The notes under the pieces are model-generated. The model was not told the DNA's origin. It saw only the letters and a program-made list of their open reading frames with translations, and ran no database searches. A stretch of DNA of 64,000 nucleotides from NCBI RefSeq assembly GCF_000711245.1, contig NZ_JOMH01000001.1, forward strand, positions 2,970,830-3,034,829, read 5' to 3'. Source of the stretch: Polycyclovorans algicola TG408. Its GTDB lineage: Bacteria > Pseudomonadota > Gammaproteobacteria > Nevskiales > Nevskiaceae. The position numbers were made by a program, and so were the translations under genes. Positions 37,932-49,773 of the stretch are shown in pieces. Numbering within the stretch: position 1 is the first letter of the stretch; every line of letters starts with the position of its first letter.

Positions 37932-38501
37932 TCAGTATCTTACGGGCTGAGCGTTCCACAGTGGCGGCGCCGGGGGCGGCACGTTGGGCCGATTGAGGGT
38001 GGGAACCCCATCGTTCGGATGCGGCACCACACCGTAAGGATCACTGGCGCTCATGCCATAGGCCTGCACCCAATGCCGCAATCGCGCCAGGTTGGCGGCA
38101 ATTTCCGGATCGTCGGGCGACAGCCGCGAGGCGCGCTCGAGCAGTTCGATGGCTTCGTAGTAATGCCCCTGCTCGCTACGCACCACCGCCATGTTGTTGA
38201 TGGCCGCGGGATCGAAGGGGTTGACTTGCAGCGCTTCCTGCAGGGCCTGCTCGGCCGCATCGGGTTGCCCTTCGGCCAGATACTGCCGGGCGACCATGTC
38301 CTGGGTCACGAACGACGACTGGCCCTCGGGCTCGAACGGCGTTTCGCGCACGGGCACCGGGTAGGTGTTGCGCAGTGGCCCGGCGGTTTCAACGCGGTAG
38401 TCGGCGTCGCCGACCGGAATGATCTGACGCTCGGACGCCGTGCTGGCGCAGCCGGCCAGCGACACTGCGGTCAGCGTGACCCAGATTCGGAAGACGCTCA
38501 T
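37932..38501 (-). CDS. TPR-containing lipoprotein at the end of the cellulose operon
   Basis: 189 residues. Lipoprotein signal with lipobox LAGC (Cys18), then a linker and two to three TPR helices (ARQYLAEGQPDAAEQALQEALQVNPFDPAAINNMAVVRSEQGHYYEAIELLERASRL is the repeat region, residues about 71-125), then a Pro-rich tail. The next residues after the Cys do not include an Asp, so an outer-membrane location is expected. It overlaps bcsC by 4 bp, so it is part of the operon. It is not a known bcs component that I recognise; a role in guiding or anchoring BcsC is inference. Confidence 0.75.
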   Translation of the reverse strand: MSVFRIWVTLTAVSLAGCASTASERQIIPVGDADYRVETAGPLRNTYPVPVRETPFEPEGQSSFVTQDMVARQYLAEGQPDAAEQALQEALQVNPFDPAAINNMAVVRSEQGHYYEAIELLERASRLSPDDPEIAANLARLRHWVQAYGMSASDPYGVVPHPNDGVPTLNRPNVPPPAPPLWNAQPVRY

Positions 38502-41500
38502 AGCCGGGGATCCCCGAAGTTGTAATAAGGAAGCAAGGGTGCCGGCGGAATCGACACCCGCCCTTGCGGCGTCATCAGGTAACGGATGTAGGCCGAGGCG
38601 TAGGCCTCGTCGTAATCGCGTGCGTTGTCGAGACCGAAGCGCGCGCCGGCGACGAGTTGCGAGGTGATCAGGTATTCCAGGGCACCGCCCAGCGAAAAGC
38701 CGACGCCGCTGGAGCTCTGCCCGGCATAACCGCCCGAAAACTCAAGGTCGGGGTTGTCGAGCACCAGCTCGTCGACCGCCGTTTGCAGGGCAGAGTCGTT
38801 GGGGAACAGCGGCGCGCCGTCTTCGCGGAACCCCTGGATGCCCAGCGAGGCGTTGAGTCGGTACGACAACCGGTTTCGCCCGCCGACCCACTCCACCGGG
38901 ATCGCCAACGCCACATACGACTGCGGACTGAAGTAGCCGCCATGACCGAAGGTGAAGCGGCGCAGGTTCTCGTCGTAGGCGAAGGTCGTGAGGTTAAGGC
39001 CCCAGGTGACGCGCATGTCGCGCCGCTCGATGGCGCGGGCGTAGAACCCGGCACCCAGCTCATAGGACTGGTTGCGGGCGACATTTTCACCGTCATAGAC
39101 GTGATAGCCGGCGTTGCCATAGATGCCGTACTGACCGAGACCCTGAATGATGTCCAGCCGGCCACCGGTCTTGGTTACCCCGCCCCAGTCTTCGCCCAGC
39201 CCCGGATCAAACGCTCCGGCGTAGGACAACAAACTGTCGGTCACCGAGCGCCTGGCGAGGTCGATCTTGAAGCTGGTGTCATCAATCTTGGGTTGCCAGT
39301 TGAGGCCACCGACAATGGTTTCGACCGGAAATCCGAGTGGCGAGCTGCCCACGTCGGCGCGAAACGGCCCGGCCTCGTAAGCCGCACCGACCGCGATTCC
39401 GTCCTCGCTCTGGCCGAAGCTACGTCCCTCCAAAACATCAGGGTCAACCAGCGCCAGCGCGCCAAACAGCGGTAGCTGGGCACCCGACACCGTGCCGGCA
39501 TCAAGGAACACCGGCACCGCGCGCAGGCGAATCCGCCCGGCCCGTTCACCGGCAAAACTGACTTCGACCGGCATCTCGATATCGGTCAGTTCATCGAGCC
39601 CGGGCACACCATCGCGGTTGCGAATGCTGAGCCCCATGCTGGCCCATGCGCTGCGTTTGGCACGCAGGTCGGCGATGTCGCGCATCAGCGCGTTGCCCGG
39701 CGCATCCTGCTGCATCACCGGTCGCCCGCCGCCCGCAAATGCCGGCCGGGACAACAGCGGATCTTGGCGCAGCTGAATGTCGGGCGCAGCCCGACTTCTC
39801 GCCGAAAATGCCGGGGTCTGCACCTGTTGCTGCACCGGCTGCGGTTGCCGATAAACCGGCGCCGACAACTGTTGCGCCATCCCTGCAGGGCCGAGTCGCA
39901 GCCCCTGGGCCTCGTAGCTTTCGGCCGGCGCGCCCCATTGCACCTCATTGCGGGGCTGGATGGTTTCAACCTGCAAGCCGGGCGCGACGCTCAACGCCCC
40001 CGCCTGCACCGGCACACCGGGCGCGGACGCAGCGCGTGAACCATAAACCTGCGGGACTGGGGCCGGGTACTGCTGCGACGAGGGTCGGTTGCTAAGCTGC
40101 GTCGACAAGCCGGCGGGATAGGTTTGCCGGACTTGCGGCGCGTCACCCGTTTCGGCCTGGCCGGTGATGGACTGAATCTCACCCATCACATCACTGCGAA
40201 AGCGGTCCTCGCTGCCAATGCGCTGCTGCGGGCTCGCGGCAGGTGGCGCCTGTCGGGGGAAAACCGGCCCATCCTGCGGGGGCTGCCAGCTCGGTTGGGC
40301 CGCTTGCGGCGCAATCGTGCCGTACGCACGCGGGTCTTGCGCGACGCCCATTGCGTCCCGGTATTGTGGGACAGCGGGCGCTTGACGCGCGGGTTGCCCA
40401 GGCTGAAACACGTAGACATCGTCACTCTGCTGGACCCAGACACCCCCCTCGGCGCCGGGCAGACCGCGGGTTTGCACGGCAGCGCCGCGGCTGTCAGCGA
40501 GGGTTGTCACCCGCACCCAGTGCGTGCCCTGTGGCGGCGTCCAGGCATCGGCAACATAGTCGCTGCGGGGCCGCGCGGTGGCGGATGAGACGGTTAAGCC
40601 GTGTGCACCGGCGTCATGCGGTTTTTTTTTTGCCGAGTTCACGTTCGGCAGCGACCACCCTGTGAAGGGCGCTGCGCCCATGAAGTCCTGTCGGTAGGCG
40701 GGGGACTGCTGGGGGTCGACGAGGAACAACTGCGGCGAATAGGTGCCGTCGCCACTGACGCCTTCGGCACCGCCCGCTTCCTGATCGAGTCGCAGGGCGT
40801 GCTGGAACAGTTGCAGTGCGCGGCCATCTTCACCGCGCGCGCGCGCAGCCCGCCCGGCCAGCGCGTAGAGGCGCGAGCTGTTGGGATCAAGGGCGAACGC
40901 GTCGTCAAGCAGCACTTCAGCCTGATCAAGATCTTCCATGGCCAGTGCCGCGTTGATGGCGCTGCGATAGGCATCGGCGTTTTCCGGGTCGACGTCGATG
41001 ACCCGGCGATTCAACGCCAGCACCCGATCGTAGTCGCGCGCGTCGTTATAGAGCCGCGCCAATGCCATCAGCACCCGTGGGTCGTTGGGGTTCACCCGCA
41101 GCAACGGTTCAAGGTACTCGTAGGCCTGTGCCAATTGACCGTCTTCGCGCACCAGATCGGCTTGGCGCAGGCGATAGGCGATGCGCATGTTGGCAAGCTG
41201 CAGCGACTGCTGATCATCAAAGCCGGTCTGCTGCAGCAGGTCTTCCATGACCACCTCAAACTCGGCGTCCTGACGCAGGGAAAACAGCAGCCCGGCGTAT
41301 TGCAGGCGCATGCCAATGTCGGGGTTGGGCACTCGCGACAGTGCCTGGCGCATGTAACTCATGGCGCGCGGCTCGTCACCGATTGCCGCCCACGCGGTGG
41401 CCAGCGCGCCCAGCAGTTCGGGGGTTTCGTCAACGTAAGGTTCGACCACGGCGAGAATCTGCACCGCTTCTTCGAGCTGGCCGTAGCGGGCAAACACCGA

Positions 41501-43378
41501 GGCGCGCTCGGTTTCGTAACGAATCCACAGCCGCCGCTGCAGGGAAGCCATGTCGTCATTGCGGTTGACGGCAGGGATGCGTTCAAGCACCTGCAGGGCG
41601 TTAAACCAATCCTGCTGCTCGGACAGCAACATCGCCTTGATGAAGTAAGCGTCGGCCAACTGCTTGCCGTCGGTAATGAGCCCATCAACCAGCGTGTTGG
41701 CGTCACGGGTGCGGCCCTCTCGCTGGTAGATTCGCGCCAGCGACAGGCGGGTCCAGGGACTTTCCGGGTCGTGCAGCAACGCCTCTTTGAGCAGCTTTTG
41801 AGCGGTCGCGTCATCGCGATTGCGAATCGCCTTGTCGGCCTCATCGCGAAGGAACTGGCCGCGCAGCTGACTGAGATTGCCGACCTCGTTCTGCAATCGT
41901 CGGGGCAGACGTTCGGCCAGGGCAATGGCCTCCTGCAGACGGTTGGTCTGCGAGTAGACGCTGACCAGCCCGCGAATGGCCGTGAGGTTTTCGGGATCGC
42001 GCGCCAGCAGCTCGCGGTAGATCTGCTCGGCCTCACCACTTTGACCGCGCTCGACCAGCATGTCGGCGAGCGTGGATTTGACCTCCGGCTGCCGCTCGGC
42101 GACCTGCGGGTTGGCATCAATCGCCGAGCGCAAACGTTGCAGCGCCTCGTCGGTGCGACCCGCCTCGCGGGCGGTGGCGGCACTGCGCACCGCCTCCCAG
42201 AAGCGGGCCGATTGCAGGGCCTCGCGCCACCGCTGGGCGGTGTTCGGTTCGGACTGGCTGGCACGGTCTAACAGGTTGCGGGCCTCGGCGTAGCGCTCTT
42301 GGCGCAGCATGACAATGCCCATGCCCCCCAGGGCGTCGGCGTTGCCGGGCTGTTCGGCCAGGAGTTGCGCGAAGCTTTGCTCGGCGCCTGCAAGATCGCC
42401 GTTGTTGAGCACCTCGAAGGCCTCACGGATTCGGCTGCCGAATACCTCTTCGACGGTCGGACCGCTGGGCGCCTGTATCTCGCCTCCGCTTTGCGCAGCC
42501 GATCGCGCCTGCGCGCCGGGGTAGCTCCTGACCTCGCCGGTCTCCAGGGTGGCGACGGTGCCGCCCGGTCCGACTTTTTCCAGCGCAGCCAGGCGCTTGT
42601 CGATCTCGGGGTCCTTGCCAAATTTCTCGACGAAGCCCCGATACAGCGGCAAGTCGCGCGGCGTCGCCGACAGCCAGATCAACCCTTGTCGCCACGCCTG
42701 CTTGACCTCGACATCCACCGTGCCGTCATCCGCCAGCGCGGCCAACTGCTGCACGCCCTGACGACGGGTTGATTCCTGATACGTCAGGTGCTGGGCCAGC
42801 GCAACCTTGTAAATGGCGTCGTCGGGGTTTGCTTTGACCAGGCCCTCGAGGCCATTTTTGGCGGGTGTCCAGCCGCCTTCGGTACCGGCAAGCGTCTGGT
42901 AGTACTCAAGCCCGAGTCGGGTGTTGGGCACCTGGCCATCAAAGGCGCGCTCGTAAGAATCGATGGCGTCGTCAAAGCGCCCCTCCTGCGCCAGCTTGCG
43001 CGGGTCATCGAGGCGCTTCTGGTCGAATGACGCGGCCCGAATGGCCGCCTCCGCGCGGGGAATATCGGGATGCTCGGGCGCCACCTTGCGCAACCGTTCA
43101 AGGTAGACACCGGCCGCCGATTGACGACCGGTACGCGCCTCGGCCATTGCCAGACCGGCCAGCGCAGTGGGGCTGTCGCGTGACACCCGCAACAGGCGCA
43201 ACCAACTGTCGCGGGCCAGGTCATCACGACCTTGCGCTTCCCAGTGCCGGGCCTGATTCGATAATTCGATCTCGGGGTCCGCACCTTGCGCCTGCGCGCT
43301 GAAGCCGCCTGTCGCAAGGCTGATGAGCCCGGCCGCGATCAATCCCCGCCATGCATCTCGCTGTGTCAATGCATCCAC
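38498..43378 (-). CDS. bcsC: Cellulose synthase outer-membrane export protein BcsC
   Basis: 1626 residues starting GTG, with a signal peptide (RGLIAAGLISLATGGFSAQAQG). Residues about 30-890 are a long solenoid of TPR units, such as ALGGMGIVMLRQERYAEARNLLDRA. Residues about 1250-1626 are the BCSC_C beta-barrel, ending in YNFGDPRL. Between them, about 900-1250, is an unusually long Pro/Gln/Ser-rich linker, making the protein about 470 residues longer than E. coli BcsC (1157). Function: periplasmic scaffold and outer-membrane channel for the cellulose chain. The start overlaps bcsZ by 13 bp. An A10 tract lies in the linker (40622-40631). Confidence 0.93.
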   Translation of the reverse strand: MDALTQRDAWRGLIAAGLISLATGGFSAQAQGADPEIELSNQARHWEAQGRDDLARDSWLRLLRVSRDSPTALAGLAMAEARTGRQSAAGVYLERLRKVAPEHPDIPRAEAAIRAASFDQKRLDDPRKLAQEGRFDDAIDSYERAFDGQVPNTRLGLEYYQTLAGTEGGWTPAKNGLEGLVKANPDDAIYKVALAQHLTYQESTRRQGVQQLAALADDGTVDVEVKQAWRQGLIWLSATPRDLPLYRGFVEKFGKDPEIDKRLAALEKVGPGGTVATLETGEVRSYPGAQARSAAQSGGEIQAPSGPTVEEVFGSRIREAFEVLNNGDLAGAEQSFAQLLAEQPGNADALGGMGIVMLRQERYAEARNLLDRASQSEPNTAQRWREALQSARFWEAVRSAATAREAGRTDEALQRLRSAIDANPQVAERQPEVKSTLADMLVERGQSGEAEQIYRELLARDPENLTAIRGLVSVYSQTNRLQEAIALAERLPRRLQNEVGNLSQLRGQFLRDEADKAIRNRDDATAQKLLKEALLHDPESPWTRLSLARIYQREGRTRDANTLVDGLITDGKQLADAYFIKAMLLSEQQDWFNALQVLERIPAVNRNDDMASLQRRLWIRYETERASVFARYGQLEEAVQILAVVEPYVDETPELLGALATAWAAIGDEPRAMSYMRQALSRVPNPDIGMRLQYAGLLFSLRQDAEFEVVMEDLLQQTGFDDQQSLQLANMRIAYRLRQADLVREDGQLAQAYEYLEPLLRVNPNDPRVLMALARLYNDARDYDRVLALNRRVIDVDPENADAYRSAINAALAMEDLDQAEVLLDDAFALDPNSSRLYALAGRAARARGEDGRALQLFQHALRLDQEAGGAEGVSGDGTYSPQLFLVDPQQSPAYRQDFMGAAPFTGWSLPNVNSAKKKPHDAGAHGLTVSSATARPRSDYVADAWTPPQGTHWVRVTTLADSRGAAVQTRGLPGAEGGVWVQQSDDVYVFQPGQPARQAPAVPQYRDAMGVAQDPRAYGTIAPQAAQPSWQPPQDGPVFPRQAPPAASPQQRIGSEDRFRSDVMGEIQSITGQAETGDAPQVRQTYPAGLSTQLSNRPSSQQYPAPVPQVYGSRAASAPGVPVQAGALSVAPGLQVETIQPRNEVQWGAPAESYEAQGLRLGPAGMAQQLSAPVYRQPQPVQQQVQTPAFSARSRAAPDIQLRQDPLLSRPAFAGGGRPVMQQDAPGNALMRDIADLRAKRSAWASMGLSIRNRDGVPGLDELTDIEMPVEVSFAGERAGRIRLRAVPVFLDAGTVSGAQLPLFGALALVDPDVLEGRSFGQSEDGIAVGAAYEAGPFRADVGSSPLGFPVETIVGGLNWQPKIDDTSFKIDLARRSVTDSLLSYAGAFDPGLGEDWGGVTKTGGRLDIIQGLGQYGIYGNAGYHVYDGENVARNQSYELGAGFYARAIERRDMRVTWGLNLTTFAYDENLRRFTFGHGGYFSPQSYVALAIPVEWVGGRNRLSYRLNASLGIQGFREDGAPLFPNDSALQTAVDELVLDNPDLEFSGGYAGQSSSGVGFSLGGALEYLITSQLVAGARFGLDNARDYDEAYASAYIRYLMTPQGRVSIPPAPLLPYYNFGDPRL
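40622..40631 (-). repeat. A10 homopolymer in the bcsC coding sequence
   Basis: Ten T on the plus strand, so ten A in the coding strand, encoding the Ala-Lys-Lys-Lys step of NSAKKKPHDAG near residue 917. Both flanks read in one frame with no stop, so the tract is in frame here. Such runs are prone to slippage, and a change of one base would frameshift the following linker and beta-barrel. Confidence 0.9.
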
Positions 43379-44508
43379 CTTGTATTCAAGCGGCCCAAAC
43401 CGTCAAAACCGAATCGCCGTTCGAAGAATCCTTCGCCAAACAGCGCGAGCACCTGTTCAAAATAATGTGCCGGCTGCCCCAGATGTCCGTCGTGTCGGTC
43501 TGCCTTCAGCCGCTCGCGCAATGCGGCAACCGCAGAATCGTCGCCCAAGGCGTCGAAGTATGGCAACAGCGCTGCGGCAAAGCCGGCAGGCGTTGTCCCT
43601 TGGCCTTCGCCGGTGAGGGTGTCCACCTTTTCAATTGGCTCACCAGTCACTGCGCGCCTCAGAACCGGCGCTGCTGCGGCGAGGATCGGCATCATCCCCT
43701 GCCCGCTTGACTGGGTGGGCGCCATTGCCGCCCACAGGTAGACGCGAATGGCGTCGTAGCTGCCGATGCTGCCAGTGACACTGCAGACCGACGGCGTACC
43801 GTTGTCGTCGACCTCGTACCAGTCCGGCGCCAGACCTTGGGTGAGGTGCGTCTGCATCAGTGCAAGGTGATGGCGCCAGATCGCCATCCACGGGCCTTCG
43901 GGGTCTCGTTCCTGCAGGTAACGAAATTGAAATTCCGGCAGATAGCTGGGGTTGAGACGCCAGTGTCCGCTCTCGAGCAGGAAACCCTCAGGCGCGGGAA
44001 TCAGCATCGAGCCGACACCCGGCAGCTCCGGCACAACCTTGCCTTTGACGTGGATCAACAATTGTTGCGCCATGGTGTTGTAGTCGGGCGCGCCCCAGAG
44101 TCGTGCGGCTTCGAACAAGGCGAAGATCAACCAAAGATCGGCATCGCTGGCCGGGTTGGCGTCAATCACGCCCCAACTGCCGTCGTCCTTCTCACCCCAA
44201 AGCCAGGCCGGCAGCCGGGTGGCGAAGCTGCCATCGCTGAGGTTGTTCCGGGTCCAGCTCACCACCGCGTCGAAGCGCTCACGGTCGTTCGCGACCAGGG
44301 CGAAAAACGCCGCATAGGCCTGACCTTCCGAGACGGTTCGCCCCCCGGCCGTGTGGTCAACCACGCGGCCATCGGCCTGGATAAAGCCTTCGGCAAACGC
44401 CTCCCAGGCTGGCCAGTGGCGGTGGCGCTCGCCCAGCCACCACCAGAGACCTGACGCCAGCGCAAGCACCAGCACGCCACACATGACCCACGGAAGCCGT
44501 TTGCGCAT
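43366..44508 (-). CDS. bcsZ: Cellulase BcsZ (GH8 endoglucanase)
   Basis: 380 residues from the ATG at 44508; a GTG at 44520 is an alternative start. An N-terminal hydrophobic segment (WVMCGVLVLALASGLWWWLG) serves as signal or anchor. The GH8 catalytic domain follows, with the general acid Glu61 in TVSEGQAYAAF and the Asp-rich loop DANPASDADLWLIFAL. Periplasmic trimming of cellulose during secretion is the established role. It overlaps bcsC by 13 bp and follows bcsAB after about 46 bp. Confidence 0.93.
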   Translation of the reverse strand: MRKRLPWVMCGVLVLALASGLWWWLGERHRHWPAWEAFAEGFIQADGRVVDHTAGGRTVSEGQAYAAFFALVANDRERFDAVVSWTRNNLSDGSFATRLPAWLWGEKDDGSWGVIDANPASDADLWLIFALFEAARLWGAPDYNTMAQQLLIHVKGKVVPELPGVGSMLIPAPEGFLLESGHWRLNPSYLPEFQFRYLQERDPEGPWMAIWRHHLALMQTHLTQGLAPDWYEVDDNGTPSVCSVTGSIGSYDAIRVYLWAAMAPTQSSGQGMMPILAAAAPVLRRAVTGEPIEKVDTLTGEGQGTTPAGFAAALLPYFDALGDDSAVAALRERLKADRHDGHLGQPAHYFEQVLALFGEGFFERRFGFDGLGRLNTRWMH

Positions 44509-44554
44509 CCCGGGCGTCACACCCGCAAGCCGGCCGGGGCGGTCAGACCGACCA

Positions 44555-47500
44555 TCAGGTTCGCGCTTCCTTACGCGACAACGCCATACGTCGCAGCACG
44601 CGGTAGAGCACCAGCGCGATCAGCAGCGAGGCGATCAGACCAATCAAGACCAGCATCACCGGCTGATGGGACAACCACCAGCGCATCCCGAGAATAAACG
44701 GCAGCTTGCCCATGGCGTAGCGCGAGCCCAGGTCGTAGTGATTGACCACGTCGCCACTGACCAACACCAATTCGTCGCGCACGTACTGGCTCTTGCCCGG
44801 GTCGGAAAGGACGTCGGACATGTGCACCAGTCCCCCCGGGGTCGATGAGGCGATGACCACCACCGAGCGGTCGCCGTCCAGTGGCGACTTGAAGCCCATG
44901 ATGGCGCCGAGGTTGTCGGATGCATCGAGCACCATGTTGCCCGCGTGGCGCTGGGCACCCGACACATCTCGGCTTTCCCAACGCGCCCGCAAGCGGTCGA
45001 TGGGACCGATGACATTGATCCGCATGTCGCTGGCGGTGAAGGTCATGGGCATCTCATTCGACCAACGGCTGAGCAGTGGCTGTGTGGCGCCGGTGCCGAG
45101 TACCAACAGGTCGGCGTCGCGAAATTGGTTGATGTCATCTGCACGCCCGAGTCGCACACGATGGGTCGGAAAGCCGGTCGAGCGACCGATACGGCCCATC
45201 AGCGCGAGGAACAGCTCAACATCACCAACCGCCATGGTGTCCGGCAGGATGACAGCGGTTTCGGACAGGTCGGCCATGCGCGTGAACGGCCAGCCCGAGC
45301 TGGCGAACTTCGACAGATCCGGCATCTGCGTGTAGTGCGGCAAGCCCTGCAGATCGATGGTCGAGTCTTCGTCGATACCGCCGCGCAGGTTGTCGAGCAC
45401 CACATCGCGACAGGCACCCACCCGTTCGCGCTCGAAGTAGTACTGAAACTGCAGCTCGTTGTCGGCGCCGAACTTGTAGTCAGGGACGTAGACCGTGGCG
45501 GCGTCCACCGATTCGTATTGCGACACGAACGGCAGGTTGATCCGGTCTTCGGAATAACGGTCTTCGTTGGTCACCGACAGTGCAATGGCCTCGACAAACT
45601 CATTGTTGACGTTGACGTTGAGCGTCGACTTGCTGCCGACCGATGGCGTGTAGCGGTACTTCAGGTCCAGCTTGAGACCCTTGCTGCGCCAGGTGAACAG
45701 ATCGGGCGGCAGGCTGAAAGGCACCCGGATCAGGTCGGGGTAAGCGCCGCTGGCGACCAGCGGAAACGGGTAAAGCTCGCCTAATTCAACCGCGCGATCG
45801 GTGGGCAACCAGCGCGGCGCGTCGTAAGGCTCGCGCGGGGCGGGATCGGTGAACTCGCGAATCTGCGTGCGCCCGCCCGACAGTGACCCTGTTTTCAGCG
45901 TGACCGCCTTGGCGGCCGTATTGAGCGCATCGCCGTCGACGCCGGCCAGCACCAGCAGCTTGGCATTGGGTGCACGCGGGTTCGCCACCATCGAGACGCT
46001 GCTGTTCCCGCCACTGGGCAGACTGAGCCCTTGTGGCGCCGCGCCGCCACTGCTGATGACAATACCGTGACCCTCGGGCAGCTCACCGATGCGCACCGGG
46101 AACTCCGCGCCGCGATAGGCCGCCAATGAACCGAACCATGACGCCACCACACCAGCGGCGCGCAACTCATCGACGCTCGGCGGCCCGGCGAAGACGATGG
46201 GCAGGACCAGGCGGCGCTGGTCACGGCTGTCGAAGAACGGCTGCGGAAGCAGCGCCAGGTCATCGACCAGATTCAGGGGCTCAATGTCGAGCTCCAACGT
46301 GGATTGGTTGCTGATCACCGACCACAGGGCGCTATGGAAGGGGTTTTCGCAGTCCATCGTGTAGTGACCGATGAACTGCAAACCCACCTGATTGAAGCGA
46401 ACGAACAGACGAGGGTCGAGGTCGATCACCCTCTCGGCACCCTCGACGGTTTCCGGGCTGGTGGGCACGGTTGCCGACAGTTCGTTGTTCATGAACACGT
46501 TGAGGTGCGACAGGGGAAAGATCAACGATGGGGAGTGCGCGTATTTGATCGTCAACCGTGCCCGGCGGACGATTTCGTCATCGCGAATGCTCAGGGGAAT
46601 GGCGATCTCGCCCTGTGTGCCACGCAGGCGGATCGGCCGATCGATACCGAGGTCCTCAAACGTCAACGTGCGACTTTCAGCACGCGTGGCGCGGGCCTCG
46701 TCGTCCTGAGCGAAGGCACCGCTCTGGGCCGCCATCAAACCCAAACCCAGCATCACCGCCAATGCGACGCCCCCACCCCGTCGAGACCGCAGGGTGCCCG
46801 CCATTGCTGCGAATTTTGTTTTCATGGTTTCGACCAAGTTGGTTACCCCAAAGCGAACGATGCGCGCAATGCCCGACACCCCGTACCGCGCCACTTCACC
46901 AAACGACTGTCCGATTTGATCTTGACGCCGTTCAGTTGACCACTTCATCCACGCGTCCGCGCGACCGAAGATGGTCGCCACCAGTTGCCGTTCCTGATCA
47001 AGGCTGAGCGGCAAAAAGTTAAGGCTCAGCACCCCGTCGCTGCTGCGCACCACCCGGGCCTTGGTCCACACCAGGCGCTGCTGCGGCAGCAGCGCCACCT
47101 CCACGTCCGTCCCGCTGGTGACGCCCTGCAATGCGCCGATTCTAAGCGCCACACCGCCCTCGGAAATGTCTCTTGTCACACACGGTACATCTTGACCATC
47201 CGCCAGCCGCAGCCGCGCGGGCACCTCAACGGTCACGCGGATGGTGCGGCGAATCTGTCGCGACTCCCAGGCCACGGCCACTGCAGCGCCCAGAATCACA
47301 GCGTTGTACACCGTCCAAAACATGTTGAGCAGCACTGTGTCGAGCTCATGGGTGTTCCAGAACAGGAACCGGACGATCCCAAAGCAGAAGCCGGCCAGGT
47401 TCAGGGCCAGCAGCACGAGGTACGGGTTGGCAATAGACCGATCGAAATAATCCTTGTCGACCAGCCCGCCTTTGGCCGTGACGTTGAATGCGCCCATCTT

Positions 47501-49006
47501 CGGATTGATCAGCGCCACCGTGGTCGGAATCAGGATGTAAGTGGCCAGCACCGTCTCGTAAACCTCGGCCCAGAACGAGTGGCGGAAGGCACCCTGCAAT
47601 CGCGAGTTGGTGATGTTGGCGTGCACCAAATGCGGTGCGGCGTAAGCCGCAATGGCCAGCGCCGAAGCCTCGATGATGTGCGCCTCAAAAAACAGGTACG
47701 ACAGTGGCGCGGTCAGAAACACCAGACGCGGCAGGCCATAAAAGAAGTGCAGCATCGCGTTGGCGTAGCAAAGCCGCTGACCGATCGACAGGCCCTTGGC
47801 GATGATCGGGTTGTCAATGCGAAAGATCTGCGCCATTCCGCGTGCCCAACGAATTCGTTGACCGACATGCGCCGACAGCGACTCGGTGGCAAGACCGGCC
47901 GCCTGTGGCAGATTCAAGTAGGCGGTTTTCCACCCCCGGCGGTGCATTTTCAGCGCCGTGTGCGCGTCTTCGGTGACGGTTTCGGTGGCGATGCCGCCCA
48001 CATCGTCCAACGCAGTGCGGCGCATGACCGCGCAGGAGCCGCAGAAAAATGTGGCATTCCAGAAATCGTTTCCGTCCTGAAGCAGGCCGTAGAACAGTTC
48101 GCCCTCGTTGGGCACCTTGCGGAACGTGCCGAGGTTACGCTCGAAGGGGTCCGGCGAGAAGAAATGGTGCGGCGTCTGCATCATCGCCAGCTTGGGGTCC
48201 TTGACCATCCACCCCATCGCCACCTGCAAGAACGACCGCGTCGGAATGTGATCGCAGTCGAAGATGGCAATGAACTCACCCTGCGTCTTGGCCAGGGCAC
48301 GGTTGAGGTTGCCGGCCTTGGCGTGCTTGGAGTCCGCACGCGTGATGTGGGTGGCGCCGACCTCCTCACAAAAGGCTTTGAACTCATCGCGACGCCCGTC
48401 ATCGAGCACGTAAATACGCAGTTTCTCGCGCGGCCAGTCCACGTCGAGTGAGGCCAGCACCGTCGGCCGCACCACGCTCAGCGGCTCGTTGTAGGTCGGG
48501 ATGTAGATATCGACCGTTGGCCATTCGTCGACCTGTCGCGGCAAGGCCACCGGCTTGCGCTGCAGCGGCCACAGCACCTGAAAATAACCCAGAAAGAGGA
48601 CGATGAATGCGTACATCTCGGCGGCCACCAGCCCGAACGAGAAGAATGTGTCCAGCCCGTCACGGTGAGCCATGCCCCAGCCCAGCGTTTCGGTCAGTCG
48701 CCAGAACATGTAACGGGTGCTGACCAGGATCGACAGGGTGATCATCGCCAGTGACGCCAGACGCCCGTCCGTGCGGTTGAACCACAGCGCCAGAAACAGT
48801 GTGCCGACGCCCATGACACCTTGTTGGGTGACGGACAACGGCGTCGAAATGAAGGCGATGACCGGGATCAGGCAGATCAGCAGCACCAGCGGCAGCGCAA
48901 ACGGAATCCCCCAGATCGGCTGCTCGACAAATCGCTCGACACGACGGTCGAAGTTGCGGTTCTGCAGGCTGCGCTTGTTGGGCTGCCCGGTCTTTTTGTC
49001 GCTCAT
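44555..49006 (-). CDS. bcsAB: Fused cellulose synthase catalytic and c-di-GMP-responsive subunits BcsA-BcsB
   Basis: 1483 residues with no stop between the two parts. BcsA half (1 to about 740): TM helices, family-2 glycosyltransferase with DDG (202-204), DCD (250-252), FFCGS (320-324), TED (345-347) and QRIRW (383-387), then PilZ with RQIRR (583-587) and DISEGG (613-618), the c-di-GMP site. At about 741-766 the sequence reads like a signal peptide ([23 protein letters not shown]), followed by the BcsB periplasmic domains and a C-terminal TM helix near 1450. The ATG at 49006 overlaps the bcsQ stop by 4 bp; the longer upstream reading is not protein-like. Fusion is known for acsAB in acetic acid bacteria. 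Confidence 0.93.
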
Positions 49007-49773
49007 ATGTGGGTCACCAACCATTGGGCAAGGTCGCGAAAGTCGGCCTCGACCGCCGCCGCCGGGGCGTACTCGGACAGCCTCTGCGCTGCTGCAAATG
49101 ATTCCCGCAGCGGCGTGCTGTGACCGATGGTGAGGCTTGCCATGTGGGCGGCAAGGCGGTTGGACAAATGCTCGGCAACCTCGGCCGCCAGCCCATCGGC
49201 GTCGGGCACGGCATTGATAACGCAAGCGGCGGTGATGAAATCGGGCCTGCCCAGGCAGTACGTCGCCAACCAGCGTTCCAGCGTCGAAACGGTGACCAAC
49301 GAGGCGGTGTCGGGCAGCAACACACCCAACATCGCTTGCGTCAACGACAACAGCTGCCGCACCTGCGGTCCACTGCCGGGCGGCGTGTCCACCAGCACCA
49401 AGGTCTGCGGCGCAAGGTTCAGCGACGCCAGCCCGCGCAGAAGCCAGTCGGGATCGTCGGCGCACAGCGCTTCGAACTGCGCCACCGCACCCTCATCAAG
49501 CGCGCCAAATGGCAAAACGCTGACCCCGGACGGGCTGACCTGCATCGCCAAAGACCAGGGCGCGTCATTCAGTGACTGCACGGCCAGTCCGCGAACGTCA
49601 TCGAAAGACAGCTGCAGATGCAGTCGCAGGGCGTTTTGCGGATCGAGATCAAGCACCAGCACCCGGTGTCCGTCCGCCGCCAAGCACCTCGCAAGGTTTG
49701 CCGTCACGGTGGTCTTGCCGACGCCCCCCTTGGGCGACACGACGGCAATCAGGCTGAGCTCGGCATCGCGCAT
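49003..49773 (-). CDS. bcsQ: Cellulose biosynthesis ParA/MinD-like ATPase BcsQ
   Basis: 256 residues with the deviant Walker A motif [10 protein letters not shown] (13-22), [12 protein letters not shown] and LVLVDTPPG as Walker A'/B-like segments of the MinD/ParA superfamily. In E. coli, BcsQ is needed for polar localisation of the cellulose synthase. It starts with ATG at 49773 but has no ribosome-binding site upstream (only TCGCAAGTC). Its upstream neighbour, a 266-bp TA-flanked element, begins 12 bp away. Without the element the start would lie 9 bp after the bcsP stop. The 4-bp overlap with bcsAB couples the downstream genes. Confidence 0.9.

Follow-up and report, generated by a model that had tools for sequence, protein, structure and literature searches.

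The bcsC gene of the marine bacterium Polycyclovorans algicola TG408 carries ten consecutive adenines on its coding strand, which raises the question of whether cellulose export is switched on and off by changes in the length of this run or whether the run causes one gene to be decoded into more than one product. A preliminary description of the sequence had argued for the former, namely phase-variable export of the kind seen at contingency loci, and had mentioned transcriptional slippage as another route. We analyzed the tract in the window (the whole stretch of DNA under study, 64,000 nucleotides in length), in the TG408 genome, and in the bcsC genes of related bacteria.

The gene lies inside a bcs operon and encodes a TPR solenoid followed by a BCSC_C barrel, the combination by which we identified its product as BcsC (Table 1). 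Since the protein scored 428 bits against the NCBIfam BcsC model, under the cut-off of 858, we regard it as a divergent BcsC. No Rfam element was found in the bcs region. At the end of the cluster, an ORF that starts inside the 3′ end of bcsC (37932-38501, minus strand) encodes a TPR protein of 189 aa whose N-terminus resembles that of a lipoprotein and which may be a small accessory TPR lipoprotein.

Table 1. The bcs locus of P. algicola TG408 and the elements around the A10 tract (positions in the window).
Feature	Position	Strand	Basis or remark
bcsC, GTG start, 1626 aa; TPR, linker of about 300 residues, BCSC_C barrel	38498..43378	-	PF05420 E 3e-102, TPR families
TPR-repeat region, residues about 129-869	40772..42994	-	Pfam
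Outer-membrane beta-barrel domain, residues 1263-1602; would be absent from the tract-frameshift product	38573..39592	-	PF05420 (Pfam)
bcsZ, glycosyl hydrolase family 8; upstream of bcsC, overlaps bcsC start	43366..44520	-	
bcsAB, single 1636-aa ORF: synthase, PilZ, then BcsB (fused BcsAB); operon-upstream	44555..49465	-	
A10 slippery tract (GCA AAA AAA AAA), BcsC residues 916-919	40622..40631	-	sequence
TGA in -1 frame, third codon past tract, product about 921 aa	40614..40616	-	same spacing in the sister species (G002)
TAA in +1 frame (A9 or equivalent), product about 927 aa	40594..40596	-	frame analysis
LFLVDP, an LxLxDP-type conserved motif at TPR domain end, ~33 codons before tract	40712..40729	-	
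Small 5-bp hairpin directly 5′ of tract; possible stimulator, weak	40632..40649	-	equalled at 15% of linker positions

At the tract the forward strand reads T10, and the bcsC ORF (43378..38498), which lies on the minus strand, reads A10. The codons TCG GCA AAA AAA AAA CCG CAT specify A916 and K917-K919, and a single frame runs through both flanks, in agreement with the preliminary description, which had also correctly placed the run near residue 917, in the linker between the TPR solenoid and the beta-barrel. Such a run is far from what chance would give: it is the sole homopolymer longer than 7 nt in the window (63% GC), and the TG408 genome, a single contig of 3,653,213 bp, has only one other A10/T10 tract. 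That tract (L001, G000:C1:1796560) is found at an AT-rich locus (45% GC), which also has a membrane-protein-like ORF and is probably an island. Gain of one adenine in bcsC (A11) leads to a stop after 921 aa and loss of one (A9) to a stop after 927 aa, both before the barrel. A change in repeat length thus alters the bcsC frame, as at contingency loci, and the earlier statement that one-base slippage would remove the channel while leaving the upstream synthase genes intact holds. A search at the tract for an antisense terminator (T10 on the plus strand after a hairpin) found none. PacBio sequencing covered the genome 264x (PMC4384147), and an assembly error is an unlikely source of the run because the frame is open and the tract recurs in two independently assembled relatives.

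We examined 56 bcsC-type ORFs, paralogues and fragments included, from an order-level sample of 85 genomes with one genome per species; six species carry a tract, and the alignment within the linker is uncertain. No further close bcsC was found among 369 class-level genomes. A scan of genome contigs left the sister species Polycyclovorans sp. SAT60 (G002, PAKU01000040.1) as the sole close relative. Its BcsC is 77% identical to that of TG408, and its gene carries exactly A10 (L004:4227-4236), so the non-A-rich codons in close relatives that the preliminary description had named as counterevidence are not what the closest relative has. Around the tract the two genes share 31% identity in protein and 47% in DNA, whereas the corresponding values over the TPR part are 83% and 78%; all ten bases of the tract are kept, at an identical distance from the LxLxDP motif. 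Only one of the 13 other TG408 GCA codons aligned to alanine in the sister species is still GCA there. Given the amino acids and each gene's own codon usage, the probability of A10 is 3e-3 in P. algicola and 1.3e-4 in its sister. Among the sites compared, a set from which one A9 site of TG408 was left out, bcsC was the only site of A9 or longer common to both species.

The third A10 tract belongs to another genus (G020, L006:4271-4280), where it is read in a different codon phase, GAA AAA AAA AAG, and sits ~35 codons further into the linker. All three A10 genes are in frame at length 10. They also have an A10-N5-TGA spacing in common, in different frames, a post hoc observation on which we do not rely. 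Another member of the same genus as TG408 (G001) has a very different bcsC (L067; ~40% identity, 1386 aa, no tract) that is distant in the tree, which suggests that members of the genus have exchanged bcs loci. A split bcsC in G023 was considered as a natural frameshift and rejected, as it reflects a simple, unrelated stop in the TPR part.

In three species of a further genus (g9: G081, G034, and G029), T7 occupies the same alignment column as A10. Its context is always nnT TTT TTT RAG; the heptamer T TTT TTT is thus in the zero frame, and a -1 shift meets TGA or TAA immediately. A 13-bp stem-loop (-29.1 kcal/mol, z -4.8) begins ~5 nt downstream of the G034 tract and ranks in the most stable 0.3% of that bcsC; a heptamer followed by such a stem-loop is the layout typical of -1 frameshifting. 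The downstream stem-loop of G029 is weaker, and no downstream structure above background was found at the G081 T7 or at the A10 sites. Directly 5′ of the tract, a hairpin of at least 5 bp occurs at five of the six sites versus 14-23% of linker positions, a post hoc comparison that we treat as a lead only.

A zero-frame X XXY YYZ heptamer (A AAA AAA, A AAA AAG, or T TTT TTT) is present at all six sites. All-A/T slippery heptamers occur in eight of the 56 bcsC ORFs, six of them in the linker and one each elsewhere in G039 and G013. In the tree, the six tracts fall within one ten-member clade (support 90/99), four members of which have no tract, and about four gains or losses account for the distribution. 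When codons were redrawn according to the usage of each gene while the protein sequences stayed constant, the probability of a site within a 90-codon zone in six of ten clade members was about 4e-8, or 1e-5 with near relatives dropped; as the zone was picked post hoc, with the tracts already seen, these P values are guides rather than formal tests. For the amino acids encoded, the probability that a gene would have exactly its tract lies between 9e-5 and 9e-3. The run is thus conserved at the nucleotide level beyond what the protein needs, albeit in few species and with a post hoc zone. Stops in both alternative frames lie within 10 codons of five of the six sites, compared with a per-gene background of 0.2-2.5% (12.7% for the looser G081 site). 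Some tract-less relatives have fewer such stops: the 90-codon zone of G033 lacks them in either alternative frame, and that of G010 lacks them in the -1 frame.

The A10 and T7 sites are alike in being slippery when decoded, in having out-of-frame stops close by, and in lying shortly after a complete TPR domain, but they do not share the amino acids encoded, the base, or the codon phase. This pattern fits a selected frameshift leading to a TPR-only BcsC. We put the probability at roughly 0.5 that the bcsC A10 tract is a maintained recoding site from which both full-length BcsC and a TPR-only form would be made. The four tract-less clade members, the lack of significant structure downstream of A10, the uncertain linker alignment, and the post hoc statistics weigh against this reading. 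RNA polymerase would slip at A10 in a fraction of bcsC transcripts, gaining or losing adenines, and a ribosomal shift on A AAA AAA may contribute as well. Because stops lie near in both alternative frames, any length change that is not a multiple of three would end translation in about 2 to 8 codons. From the frameshifted transcripts, a secreted BcsC with TPRs only and about 921-927 residues would be made (roughly 100 kDa, with a predicted C-terminus of ...AKKKTA or ...AKKNRMTPVHTA), while the remaining transcripts would give full-length BcsC with its pore. With its N-terminal TPRs retained and the channel lost, the short form could act as a competitor or buffer of full-length BcsC, or retain glucan in the periplasm. 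In E. coli, each BcsB semicircle tethers a single BcsC, whose TPR 1 binds BcsB and whose last TPRs and linker start touch a putative cellulose ligand (PMC11379886), from which we infer that the short form could compete for BcsB or hold glucan. Slippage in vivo, its rate, and the role of the short form are predictions from sequence.

Of the two possible mechanisms at A10, we favor transcriptional slippage, the alternative route of the preliminary description, over a ribosomal shift. E. coli RNA polymerase slips on runs of 7 T or 8 A and more (PMC6260861), lengths reached by A10 in three species and by T7 in three. Furthermore, the stops at A10 are Thermus-like, the P. algicola genome encodes both lysine tRNAs, as does that of Thermus, the A10 sites show no downstream stimulator, and in vitro there is hardly any sliding of E. 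coli ribosomes on A10 (PMC4363877). For the T7 sites we favor -1 ribosomal frameshifting, given how the heptamer is phased, the stop that follows at once, and the stem-loop in G034; these relatives probably reach the same outcome in this way. Our broader proposal is more tentative: bcsC of this clade may be a two-product gene, in which slippage just past the TPR domain would supply the periplasm with a free TPR scaffold in addition to the full exporter. Related genera would arrive there by separate mechanisms, with RNA polymerase slipping at A10 and the ribosome shifting by -1 at T7 followed by a stem-loop, which would make bcsC a second dnaX-like case.

The strongest null is a need at the protein level for a basic patch. 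Under this explanation, a KKK (or FFK) patch is wanted in the disordered linker, and its A-rich codons arose by chance or under relaxed selection against slippage. KKK does occur in other linkers, and we counted against recoding that AKKK may be wanted in the protein itself, as the G081 linker has AAKKK with its lysines encoded by AAG AAG AAG. Runs can also persist without recoding: an unrelated gene common to G020 and G033 of genus g8 (L110 and L131; G020:C70:90805 and G033:C2:598099) carries A9 and T9 tracts 161 bp apart on one strand. However, a basic patch leaves unexplained the choice of AAA over AAG, of GCA, and of TTT TTT in genes that use TTC, for which the low per-gene probabilities were obtained. 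Neither the loss of nearly all other GCA codons between the sister species nor the encoding of different residues by A10 and T7 at the same column suits this explanation, and we consider it unlikely.

Replicative phase variation, in which DNA polymerase slipping on A10 would generate subpopulations with reversible loss of cellulose export, appears less likely still. For a GC-rich genome the A10 run is long, and it is mutable; either one-base change truncates BcsC before the barrel, and single-base or small bcsC frameshifts alter cellulose phenotypes in cultures of Pseudoalteromonas and Komagataeibacter (PMC8919034, PMC13068021). The predicted truncation claimed in the preliminary description stands, but its on/off switch has become less likely, given the T7 relatives, the conservation of the tract, and its different phase in G020. 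The three A10 genes are all in frame at 10, and the T7 that replaces A10 in three relatives is too short for high-rate switching. Moreover, the tract is kept where its flanks have diverged, the codon bias fits switching less well than recoding, and the trait shared among sites is slipperiness in decoding together with near stops. Least probable is an expression throttle, in which slippage or pausing at A10 serves only to reduce the ratio of BcsC to BcsAB, the short product being broken down: the sequence evidence is the same as for recoding, and consecutive AAA codons reduce protein output (PMC4363877), but a weaker start site would be a simpler route to the same effect, and the position just past a complete TPR domain favors a stable product.

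If bcsC is a recoded gene, recoding sets the stoichiometry of cellulose export in some bacteria, and a TPR-only BcsC isoform exists that annotation has overlooked. The gene would also be a test bed for how a recoding outcome is kept while its mechanism, RNA polymerase or ribosome, changes. No report of recoding in bcsC or another bacterial polysaccharide exporter was found in the literature searched, which did not extend to subscription papers. To our knowledge, bcsC would be the first case of recoding in exopolysaccharide secretion.

Several known systems offer points of comparison. As at homopolymeric contingency loci, a one-base change in the bcsC run would turn the gene off; unlike those loci, bcsC has T7 counterparts and a preserved in-frame length. 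In Shigella spa13 (PMC5009743), an A homopolymer likewise sets the isoforms of a secretion-system component, although slippage there gives the long product, whereas in bcsC it would give the short one. Further parallels are found in dnaX. In Thermus thermophilus (PMC5009743), transcriptional slippage at A9 of dnaX produces tau and gamma. Both genes have an A-run within one ORF with near stops in both other frames, two lysine tRNAs are available, and full-length and C-truncated products result, as predicted for bcsC; the gene and pathway differ, and slippage is shown in Thermus but predicted here. The dnaX gene of P. algicola itself was considered as a companion recoding case and rejected, since its frame holds no A or T runs of 5 or more. 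Like E. coli dnaX and copA, the bcsC sites combine an in-frame X XXY YYZ heptamer with a stop met as soon as the frame shifts, which would leave an N-terminal product, and G034 also has a stem-loop downstream. They differ in three ways: in E. coli, A AAA AAG is a stronger heptamer than T TTT TTT or A AAA AAA (PMC5009743), a strong stem-loop is present at only one of the six sites, and the shift in bcsC is predicted from sequence. The proposed split of bcsC between A10 and T7 mirrors that of dnaX, in which homologous genes use one mechanism or the other.
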